Positions 8,131-11,488 of a stretch of DNA of 64,000 bases are shown here, in pieces; positions within the stretch are counted from its first letter, which is position 1, and every line of letters begins with the position of its first letter. The stretch covers positions 310,001-374,000 of the forward strand of contig NC_018025.1 of NCBI RefSeq assembly GCF_000266945.1, read 5' to 3'. The stretch is from Desulfomonile tiedjei DSM 6799. GTDB lineage: Bacteria; Desulfobacterota; Desulfomonilia; Desulfomonilales; Desulfomonilaceae. The notes under the pieces were generated by a model, which had not been told where the DNA came from, did not search any database, and saw only the letters and a program-made list of their open reading frames with translations. A program made the translations under genes and the position numbers.

Positions 8131-8415
8131 TCATTCACACTCCAGGTCGCGATTCATCTTGGATCGCAACGACGTCCATTTGAGACTTTCGGCAAAATTC
8201 TTCCATTTATCCGGCCCAAAAGCTGCCACACTTCCAGCGGAGTCCCAGATTATCACAACGGTCCCGTTTAACCCGGTAGAAGCCGCAGCAGCCCGAAGTT
8301 TGGCCAATTCTTGTTCCCTGTGCTCCTGGGCACGCTTCCCGAACGATCGGTCCACTGGTACAAGGATAACGTTTTCCCCCTCGTGGGTAAGCTGCGCCAC
8401 TCTATATTTGGCCAT
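8131..8415 (-). CDS. small conserved-looking hypothetical protein
   Basis: A 94-residue soluble protein beginning 'MAKYRVAQLTHEGENVILVPVD' in part, with 'GLNGTVVIIWDSAG' and 'FAESLKWTSLRSKMNRDLECE' near the end. It has no signal peptide, membrane segment or motif with known function. A strong ribosome site (GGAGGG) sits seven bases before the ATG, supporting real translation. It is the last gene of the minus-strand selenoprotein cluster, 71 bp after the DsrE-like gene. Its stop is UGA, but only four codons follow before another stop and no family pattern continues, so this UGA is taken as a true stop. Function unknown. Confidence 0.7.
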   Translation of the reverse strand: MAKYRVAQLTHEGENVILVPVDRSFGKRAQEHREQELAKLRAAAASTGLNGTVVIIWDSAGSVAAFGPDKWKNFAESLKWTSLRSKMNRDLECE

Positions 8416-8486: not shown

Positions 8487-8843
8487 TCAAAAGGTGAAAA
8501 CTTTTGACTCAGCCGCCAAGCCGATCATTGTCTTGGCAGTATCCAGTTTCGCCGTCTCAATGAGATCTTTCTCGTCAATCTGACGAGTCTTGGCACAGGG
8601 GACTCAGACGTAAAACGGCACTTTTCCTTGCACCAGGAAATCCATGTAGGTGTTCATCTCATCGCCGGTCGGAGCTACTACGTTTTCTGCCATCCCTTTT
8701 TTGGCGAAAACCACTCCATCGTCTACAAGAAAGATGCTGACCTCATGACCCTCTTGCCTCGCTATATGAGCCAATTGCATACAGCGTGTCGCCCGAGTAG
8801 GGTCCTCTAGTCCTCGACTAAGAACGAAAAGGAATTTTGCCAC
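8487..8843 (-). CDS. DsrE-like selenoprotein, UxxC (in-frame UGA read as Sec)
   Basis: Read with UGA 8604-8606 as selenocysteine, this is a 118-residue DsrE/DsrF/TusD-type protein. The N-terminal half 'KFLFVLSRGLEDPTRATRCM' in part and 'GHEVSIFLVDDGVVFAKKG' are typical of the fold. After 'GKVPFYV' the frame meets UGA and continues 'VPCAKTRQIDEKDLIETAKL', ending 'KVFTF' with TGA at 8487-8489. Sec80 and Cys83 give a UxxC redox pair where related proteins have a Cys. Start: GTG at 8843 with AGGAGGT seven bases upstream (GTG at 8852 would overlap that site). If UGA were a stop, the product would lose its last third and its redox pair. Such proteins handle sulfur as persulfide or act as small redox carriers. 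Second unit of the cluster, downstream of the ArsM/AhpD frame. Confidence 0.82.
8571..8587 (-). promoter_or_regulatory. candidate SECIS element of the DsrE-like gene
   Basis: In the mRNA, CUCGUC pairs perfectly with GACGAG around the loop AGAUU. The loop starts 22 nt after the UGA at 8604-8606 and has G as its second base. Spacing, loop size and the G at loop position 2 agree with the bacterial SECIS pattern recognised by SelB. Found by eye, not by a covariance model. Confidence 0.7.
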
Positions 8844-8999
8844 TGATATCACCTCCTGAATAAGCTCGCTTCGTTAAGTAAGTGCCCTTTTCCACAACGT
8901 CCTCGTGTTCGATCGAACATCAGAAGTTCGTCTATTAGAGATCTGCTGAGAATGAGGCCGTCACCTCACATCCGCTCATCCAGAGCGGGCTGCACCAGC

Positions 9000-9329
9000 T
9001 CAGGGTGCGCAAGCGCTCGCGTCAGTCGTGGAACCATCAGCGGAATCGATACCTGCACTGCTTTTCGCTTCGGTCGACGAGCCTGAGCACGTGTCATGAA
9101 GAATCTGAATCTTGGTCGCTCCTACCGTCATCGCTACTGCGGCTGTCTCTTGAAGTTCCTCATCCGTTGCGCCGAGTTGCCTTGCGACTGCAAGGCAGTA
9201 GCGGGTTCACGGATCGCATCCCGCGGATAATGATGCCCCCAGTGCGATCAGGTGCTTGGTCTTGCGATCTAATGCGCCCTCACTATATGCAGCTTCGAAG
9301 AATTCTTGATACTTGTCGAGCGTTGCCAT
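9000..9329 (-). CDS. AhpD-like (carboxymuconolactone decarboxylase fold) selenoprotein, CxxU
   Basis: Read with UGA 9207-9209 as Sec, this is a 109-residue AhpD-type protein: 'FFEAAYSEGALDRKTKHLIAL' in part, 'SAGCDP', Sec, 'TRYCLAVARQLGATDEELQE', then 'AAVAMTVGATKIQ'. Cys38-Asp-Pro-Sec41 sits where relatives carry the CxxC redox pair. The tail is Ser/Thr-rich and ends with Cys-Ala-Pro; TGA at 9000-9002 ends it. ATG 9327-9329 has a near-ideal AGGAGGT eight bases upstream, so it can start on its own. However, the upstream methyltransferase frame runs into it without any stop, so a fused product is also made in principle. AhpD proteins reduce peroxidatic partners or act as disulfide reductases. 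Confidence 0.8.
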
Positions 9330-10109
9330 TGAGTCCGACCTCCTCTCAGAGATTGGCGTTTCAGGTTTCAGAGTCTTAAACAGGACTCCCCTTGTAATCG
9401 GGGAGCTATTGAACCCGGTCTCCGAGACTATCTCAGAGGAGACAAAACCAACTTGTTTCAGTATCTCCAGGAAATCCTTTCCTGATATAGCTCCGCCCAT
9501 TCATCCCGACCAATTATCGATCCGCGCTTTTACATCCTCGGATAGAGGCCCCGTGAGCACCTGATCAGCCACGACAAGATGCCCACCGGGCTTCAGCACT
9601 CTAAGTACCTCTTTAAGAGCCTTTGGTTTATCCGGAATGAGGTTAAAGGCCCCACTGGAGATAACGACGTCAAAGTCTGCGTCACGGAAAGGCAAGTCCT
9701 CTGCGGAGCACTCCTGAAAGGATACGTTTTTGAGATCGGTTCTGCTTAAGTTCTCCCATGCCCTCCCCAGCATTTCAGAGCTCAAATCTATGCCGACGAC
9801 CCTTCCTGTCGGTCCTGTCATTATGGCTGCCACCAATGCGTCTGTACCTCCGCCGCAGCCAATATCCAGAACGCTCTCTCCCGGAGTTATTGCTCCTGTT
9901 GAAAAAGGGTTTCCTACGCCGCAGAACGAGTCCAAGACGGCCTCGGGCAAGGATCCGAGAATGTCCGGGTCATATTTCAGAGCAGCAAGTCCTTCACGAC
10001 CTGTAGGGTAACTGAAAAGGCCGTCGGGATTGACGGCAACTTTGGAATATTTTTCGCGAACACCCTCTTCGATCTTCTTTCTATCCTCGGCAGTGAAGCC
10101 ATATTTCAT
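9000..10109 (-). CDS. ArsM-like SAM methyltransferase selenoprotein, in frame with AhpD-like domain
   Basis: Residues 1-250 are an arsenite-methyltransferase-type domain: 'FCGVGNP', SAM motif 'VLDIGCGGGTDALVAA', acidic 'VVGIDLSSEML', 'CSAEDLPF' and 'LRVLKPGGHLVVAD'. After 'ARIDNWSG' comes UGA (9501-9503, codon 203), then 'MGGAISGKDFLEILKQVGF' and 'ITRGVLFKTLKP'. In ArsM/AS3MT the matching position (Trp-Gly-x-Cys-x-Gly-Gly-Ala) is the catalytic arsenic-binding Cys, so Sec203 would replace it. The frame has no stop before the AhpD-like part. With both UGAs decoded, the product is 369 residues with Sec203 and Sec301. If UGA is a stop, the enzyme ends at 9501. Likely role: methylation of As(III) or a similar metalloid. 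Divergent from the LysR gene. Confidence 0.8.
9178..9197 (-). promoter_or_regulatory. candidate SECIS element of the AhpD-like gene
   Basis: In the mRNA, UGCCUUGC pairs over eight perfect base pairs with GCAAGGCA around the loop AGUC. The loop begins 17 nt after the UGA at 9207-9209 and its second base is G. The stem coincides with codons for 'YCLAVARQ', so it is inside the coding region, as bacterial SECIS elements are. Confidence 0.72.
9468..9484 (-). promoter_or_regulatory. candidate SECIS element of the ArsM-like gene
   Basis: In the mRNA, CAGGAA pairs perfectly with UUCCUG around the loop AGGAU, and a flanking U-G pair extends the stem. The loop starts 22 nt after UGA 9501-9503, the same spacing as in the DsrE-like gene, and again has G at its second position. 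Codons here specify 'SGKDFLE', normal for the family, so the hairpin is superimposed on coding sequence. Confidence 0.7.
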
Positions 10110-10585: not shown

Positions 10586-11488
10586 TTGAATCTTTCTCAA
10601 CTGGAAACTTTCGTAACTGTGGCTCGAACTGAAAGTTTCACCAAAGCCGCTTTGTTGATCTGTCGAACTCAATCGGCAGTGTCCAGACAAATGCAGGATC
10701 TGGAAAAGTCTCTCGGGGTGCCACTCTTCGAGAGAATCGGTCGAAAAGTGTCTTTGACCGCGGCTGGCAGAATTCTTCTCGAACAAGCCCCTCGTCTTCT
10801 TCAGCAGGCCCAAGACCTTACGGAACGACTTCGAGACTTTAACCAGGGTGTCGGAGGGGAACTTCGCGTAGGGGGTACTATTTCTGCGGCCAGTACTTTC
10901 CTTCCACGGATATTGGCCAAGTATAAACGCTCCTATCCTTCGGTAAGTCTGAGCCTCCAACCGGGGCACACGCAAATGTTGATTCAGAAACTGCGGAGCA
11001 ATGATCTGGACGTTGCTGTTCTCGGATGCGAGTCGATGGAATCAGATATGAAGACAAGCTCCCTGATCTCCGATGCGATAGTGCTCGTGGCAGCGTCTGA
11101 CCATCCGTTGGCAGCCAAGAGGTCTGTCACACCGAATGAACTGAATGGAATGGAATTCATGTTCCGCGAATCCGGTTCAGATTCCCGTAACTTAACAAAG
11201 CAGTGGTTGGTGGACAACAAAGTGGACGTGAAAACCCTGATGGATCTATGGTGACCGGATATCATAAAGCGCCTGGTAGGCGCTGGATTGGCCTTGGCCG
11301 CATTATCCGAAGCATCCGTTGCAGAGGACCTGAGGCAGAAATCGCTATCCATTATACGCGTTCATGGTTGGCCTTTAGCAAGGACAATGGCGGTGGTGCA
11401 CCACATTCAAAAATACGTGGCTCGTCCACTTCAGGGTTTCTTGGATGAGGTAGGTTTTCAGAGCCACTCTGTGTTAACGCCGGTTTAG
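10586..11488 (+). CDS. LysR-family regulator with in-frame UGA (candidate selenoprotein)
   Basis: A 300-codon frame of normal LysR length, interrupted once by UGA at 11252-11254 (codon 223). Residues 1-60 are the winged HTH ('TESFTKAALLICRTQSAVSR' in part, 'LEKSLGVPLFERIGR'). Residues 90-300 are the effector domain ('GELRVGGTISAASTFLPRIL', 'VAVLGCES'). Around the UGA the text reads 'KTLMDLW', Sec, 'PDIIKRLVGAGLALAALSE', matching the usual 'MELGSxEAIKRAVxAGLGIALLS', where a Ser/Thr/Asn at the helix start contacts ligand. The frame then runs undamaged to TAG at 11486. A perfect SECIS-like hairpin follows the UGA. Start: TTG 10586 with GGAGG upstream. Divergent from the seleno-methyltransferase operon, so probably its redox- or metalloid-responsive regulator. 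Alternative: a simple nonsense mutation. Confidence 0.75.
11268..11284 (+). promoter_or_regulatory. candidate SECIS element of the LysR-family gene
   Basis: AGCGCC pairs perfectly with GGCGCU around the loop UGGUA. The loop begins 19 nt after UGA 11252-11254 and has G as its second and third bases, including a GGU as in classical bacterial SECIS loops. A perfect six-pair stem in the right window is unlikely by chance in a decayed gene. Confidence 0.6.

Follow-up and report, generated by a model that had tools for sequence, protein, structure and literature searches.

An ArsM-AhpD selenoprotein fusion gene of Desulfomonile tiedjei with a conserved candidate internal start ahead of its AhpD module

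Fusions of an ArsM-type methyltransferase domain with an AhpD domain have been described as the selenoprotein family NF041537. A 2026 review lists this family in its table with the motifs UxxG and CxxU and with three selenocysteine (Sec) residues, and credits it to Haft and Tolstoy 2025 (PMC13188914). The window, by which we mean the whole analyzed stretch of 64,000 nucleotides from D. tiedjei DSM 6799, encodes such a protein. It matches the NCBIfam profile NF041537, named arsenite methyltransferase/AhpD domain selenoprotein, with 634.6 bits against a curated cut-off of 510, residues 1-344 falling on profile positions 1-345. Both Sec motifs are present, UxxG as UMGG at residue 203 and CxxU as CDPU at residue 301, and a third UGA is kept together with a covarying hairpin, in agreement with the three Sec of the review table. 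Since the match lies above the cut-off and the family is tabulated in PMC13188914, the ArsM-AhpD fusion itself is not new. In the passages of the literature on the family that were available to us, no description of a conserved internal start was found, and it is this start that we consider here.

The fusion gene and its relatives

The gene lies on the minus strand. The frame opened by the ATG at 10109 reaches its first TAA or TAG at codon 412, and ahead of that codon it contains TGA at codons 203, 301, 370, 378, and 383. According to the preliminary description, the methyltransferase and AhpD genes share one frame with no stop between them. This frame is real, and translation of the junction, GVLFKTLKP-ETPISERRSDS-MATLDKYQEF, confirms the 11-residue linker between the two parts. 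Along the frame, the order of elements is TGA 9501-9503, AGGAGG, ATG 9327-9329, TGA 9207-9209, and TGA 9000-9002. The same description gave the product as a two-Sec fusion of 369 residues. Sec at the first two UGAs held up, and the size did not: because the third UGA is probably also a Sec codon, the stop would be TGA 8976-8978 and the protein would have 377 residues and three Sec. The main features of the gene are as follows.

8976..10109 (-): ArsM-AhpD fusion selenoprotein, 377 aa, three Sec (codons 203, 301, and 370); from the NF041537 match and translation, with the third Sec and the end from relatives
8976-8978 (-): TGA, probable stop codon of the fusion gene (codon 378)
8976..9329 (-): AhpD module alone, predicted second product, 117 aa, two Sec; from the AlphaFold2 domain boundary and PF02627

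The AlphaFold2 model, built from seven sequences (mean pLDDT 75.2), contains two folded domains. The linker at 253-261 has pLDDT below 50, the AhpD helix begins at residue 260, and the tail at 343-377 again falls below 50. In the PDB, the model is closest to As(III) methyltransferases. In the arsenite methyltransferase 5evj, the residue aligned to Sec203 is a conserved Cys of ArsM, and Sec301, in the AhpD domain (PF02627 of Pfam), lines up with the second Cys of the CxxC of 1vke. The modeled fold and the Cys/Sec position agree with arsenic as the putative substrate of the methyltransferase domain.

Relatives at E <= 1e-50 were found in 21 of the 395 genomes of the phylum, and six of these genomes, including that of the window, carry the full ArsM-AhpD fusion. 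Additional searches covered 18, 22, 5, 194, 29, 389, and 5 genomes, many of them recurring, and one contig scan. Together they yielded eight distinct ArsM-AhpD fusions (the window, L035, L011, L036, L012, L013, L014, and L015). The AhpD domain as a query hit 15 places in 14 of the 395 genomes, all 15 of them fused, six as ArsM-AhpD and nine in other fusions; no stand-alone gene of this AhpD type was found in these 395 genomes at E <= 1e-12. A scan of four of the nine other fusions identified each as MduS, a methyltransferase domain-containing selenoprotein (NF045649, 490-643 bits, cut-off 380); all nine are called MduS here from their likeness to these four. Neither the plasmid search (no place with at least 80% query cover) nor the viral contig search added relatives.

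The resulting set of 17 distinct loci leaves out L009, which reads the same as L035 (both contigs are 27,034 long), and L038, which is identical to L015 wherever the two were compared; L055 and L056 are close to one another, yet both are counted. The window itself also appears as L001, L010, and L043, and L044-L048 duplicate places already in the set. Two Sec-ArsM paralogs, L031 and L037, have no AhpD in the stretch behind and a TAA a few residues into the linker, possibly reflecting loss of AhpD.

Selenocysteine codons and their hairpins

Each of the three UGAs is followed by a hairpin resembling a SECIS element.

9501..9503 (-): UGA1, Sec203; aligned to Cys in 5evj; UGA in 8/8 distinct ArsM-AhpD loci
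9467..9485 (-): SECIS-like hairpin of UGA1; 8-bp stem, GGA loop; lowest synonymous divergence of the ORF
9207..9209 (-): UGA2, Sec301 of the CxxU motif (CDPU); aligned to the second Cys of CxxC in 1vke
9178..9197 (-): SECIS-like hairpin of UGA2; in 16/16 distinct loci with UGA here; compensatory pair
9000..9002 (-): UGA3, probable Sec370 in the disordered C-terminal tail (CAPU); tail UGA in 17/17 distinct loci
8972..8988 (-): SECIS-like hairpin of UGA3, overlapping the stop codon; 21 compensatory cells

The hairpin test was positive in all distinct loci that carry the respective codon (8/8 for UGA1, 16/16 for UGA2, and 17/17 for UGA3). A score of at least 11 was reached at 37 of 41 Sec sites, compared to 3.7% of 5343 control codons; the remaining four hairpins, those of UGA2 in L036 and L012 and of UGA3 in L050 and L052, score 8 or 10. 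The UGA2 hairpin (14 sequences) has a compensatory pair. Covariation was also found in the UGA3 hairpin, where 91.1% of cells are paired over 15 sequences and 21 cells have changed on both sides. None of 500 shuffles reached this level, and versions slid along the alignment are only 38-48% paired. At the gathering threshold, Rfam has a sole match in the whole window, a tRNA, and one tRNA-Arg is its only tRNA.

The lists of open reading frames under translation table 11 split the frame at the UGAs; with these as stops, there would be two ordinary genes, encoding a methyltransferase of 202 aa and, separately, small proteins. This reading is hardly credible, as homology runs on past each UGA, Cys is aligned to UGA1 and UGA2, and the hairpins covary. 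Very improbable, too, is termination at UGA3 to give a two-Sec fusion of 369 residues. In its favor, the NF041537 profile, with 345 positions, stops short of the tail. However, the tail UGA occurs in all 17 distinct loci, its column is invariant in the 7/7 aligned sequences, the hairpin follows closely and either spans the next stop codon or lies past it, and the review entry for the family gives three Sec (PMC13188914). Thus the third TGA, at 9000-9002, is probably a Sec codon as well. The TGA at codon 378 was considered as a further one and rejected: a hairpin of at least 10 points follows it in 1 of 13 loci, the window itself, and the downstream sequence diverges. In L015 and L038, CxxU is replaced by CxxC (CEPC), and a SECIS-like hairpin is still visible after it, perhaps as a trace of a recent Sec-to-Cys change.

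The junction and its internal start

The preliminary description assigned to MATLDKYQEF a ribosome site of its own, and this site is present.

9339..9344 (-): internal Shine-Dalgarno (SD) sequence AGGAGG, nine bases ahead of the ATG; anti-SD duplex -12.7 kcal/mol
9327..9329 (-): internal ATG (Met261) at the methyltransferase/AhpD junction; ATG or GTG in 17/17 distinct loci

In the window, anti-SD pairing is -12.7 kcal/mol at the internal site vs. -5.4 kcal/mol at the ArsM start. It had been suggested to check whether relatives keep the stopless junction, and all eight distinct ArsM-AhpD loci do, as do the MduS loci (17/17 in total). The start codon at the junction is ATG in 16 of the 17 loci and GTG in one (L054), and only 4 of 255 residues at the 15 positions ahead of it are Met. 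Mean anti-SD pairing amounts to -9.31 kcal/mol at the junction vs. -3.17 at 110 other in-frame ATGs. An SD of -6 kcal/mol or stronger is found in 16/17 distinct loci (7/8 ArsM-AhpD and 9/9 MduS) compared to 13/110 controls, with a Fisher p of 1.3e-11 that overstates independence, since sequences within each family are related. These controls omit ATGs four codons past the junction start; when they are included (135 ATGs over 19 loci), 13% reach -6. The exception is L013, which has Met at the junction without an SD (-0.7). The separate AhpD-like protein envisaged earlier is therefore possible, with the start in 17/17 and the SD in 16/17 distinct loci.

The synonymous sites provide a second line of evidence. 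Synonymous divergence was compared pairwise between one reference and three relatives. Its mean is 0.77 per 12-codon window, and the 25 windows with the lowest values are confined to the three hairpin regions and the junction; a value as low as that of the 12 linker codons occurs in 5.2% of windows. This conservation points to a function of the junction at the RNA level. Because every relative found has an open junction with a start, and because synonymous sites at the junction are unusually conserved, the sequences indicate that the arrangement is more than chance.

ArsM-DUF2284 fusions were tried as a third case of an internal start and rejected. The SDs of their first Met are weaker (-1.9, -2.7, and -6.6), and strong SDs (-9.3, -9.3, and -10.8) belong to a later Met; since this amounts to a choice among Mets after the fact, these fusions are not counted.

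A different explanation of the junction, possible but doubtful in our view, is that the three-Sec fusion is the sole product, with the Met and the SD-like run being a relic of a once-separate AhpD gene or a by-product of the Glu/Arg/Gly-rich linker codons. The amino acids indeed largely account for SD strength: the fraction of synonymous shuffles with an SD as strong ranges from 0.058 to 1.0 across loci (0.159 in the window), and in MduS the SD signal is inseparable from a conserved Glu-Glu, because synonymous shuffles often give an equal SD. The lack of an SD in L013 points the same way, and all close AhpD relatives are fused, so that selection would be keeping the fusion. On the other hand, proteins that have diverged by ~50% still share the start and the SD, as do fusions with two dissimilar methyltransferases, within a linker that is otherwise variable, and the synonymous sites of the junction are conserved. 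On balance, we consider it somewhat probable that the internal start is used and that a two-Sec, AhpD-only product is made alongside the fusion.

The computation supports the family assignment, the three Sec codons with hairpins, the conserved open junction, and the conserved start. The mechanism that we propose on this basis is as follows. One gene would encode a three-Sec fusion, in which an arsenite-methyltransferase-type domain has Sec203 in place of the conserved Cys, the redox pair of the AhpD/CMD domain is CxxU, and the third Sec sits in a flexible tail. Ribosomes starting at Met261 would produce, besides the fusion, the AhpD module with its Sec tail alone (117 aa). The most likely role of the AhpD module and the tail would be to reduce the metalloid that the methyltransferase uses, or to hand it over; CxxU, the tail Sec, and the methyltransferase would presumably form a redox relay, with the free AhpD form as an additional, diffusible redox partner.

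The purpose of the internal start is probably to supply an extra free AhpD module rather than to escape UGA1. Bypass of UGA1 cannot be the general reason for it, because MduS keeps the start without having Sec in its methyltransferase part. The preliminary description held that the amount of AhpD would be uncoupled from Sec supply at the first UGA. UGA1 would indeed be bypassed, and the uncoupling would go no further than that codon, because Sec is still needed at UGA2 and UGA3. More generally, we see about equal chances for and against a scenario in which a mobile translation module was attached in frame downstream of two or more dissimilar methyltransferases and retained its own start each time. 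This module would comprise the SD, the start, the AhpD domain with CxxU, and the Sec tail together with its hairpin. Each such gene would then give a multi-Sec fusion and a free two-Sec redox protein, and the internal ribosome site, not read-through of UGA1, would determine their ratio.

Neighboring genes and comparison with known systems

Two genes next to the fusion also contain in-frame TGA codons.

8487..8852 (-): DsrE-like selenoprotein downstream of the fusion, Sec83 at TGA 8604-8606; PF02635, E 2.5e-18
10586..11488 (+): divergent LysR-type regulator with in-frame TGA 11252-11254 (candidate Sec223); PF00126/PF03466

In the DsrE-like gene, UGA replaces a Cys (FYVUVPCAK); the homolog in L062, from 4195 (+), keeps the UGA at this codon, followed by a hairpin. 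Downstream of this gene, a 94-aa ORF at 8131-8415 (-) has no Pfam match. A tblastn search for the neighbor genes in relatives gave nothing in short flanks and matches in longer ones.

The LysR homolog in L060 (498-1382, minus strand) is 77% identical and has TGA at the same codon 223. The hairpin after this TGA shows a compensatory change between the window and L060, and the part of the protein beyond it is under purifying selection in the same comparison (pN 0.176 vs. pS 0.633). The regulator resembles NF040786, the selenium-metabolism LysR, with a score of 183, below the cut-off of 250. These observations make it a candidate Sec-containing transcription regulator, and it remains a candidate because just two sequences are known to us. 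In the parts of PMC5322559 at hand, LysR_Se is presented as a regulator and not as a selenoprotein, and the review PMC13188914 has no mention of LysR. An AlphaFold2 model from the two sequences (mean pLDDT 31.7) was set aside.

If both products of the fusion gene are made, half of what such selenoprotein genes produce is absent from present annotation, and a costly Sec protein has a second form. The locus would then also offer a simple test system for the way in which bacteria balance a Sec enzyme against its free redox partner. If Sec in the LysR-type protein is confirmed, it would be a regulator carrying Sec that could sense selenium or metalloids directly.

Among the known systems, the ArsM arsenite methyltransferases 5evj and 4fr0 have the same fold, with Cys and not Sec at the position of Sec203; they contain no AhpD domain and are ~28% identical to the fusion of the window. 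The families NF047649 (MTase_UXPK_star) and NF041536 (ArsM_DUF2284_UU) share the Sec-ArsM N-terminal part and have Sec-bearing C-terminal additions, but, unlike the fusion described here, lack the AhpD module. The table of the review assigns two Sec to NF041536 (PMC13188914), fewer than the in-frame UGAs in the ArsM-DUF2284 fusions L016, L017, and L032; each of these has at least three, one in ArsM and the others in PGGU-like repeats. NF041537 (ArsM_AhpD_UU) has the same domain order, both the UxxG and CxxU motifs, and three Sec, and the fusion itself is no different from it. MduS (NF045649) differs in its methyltransferase domain, which carries no Sec, so that it has two Sec in total, whereas it shares with the fusion of the window the AhpD CxxU module, the C-terminal Sec tail, the stopless junction, and the internal start with a strong SD.
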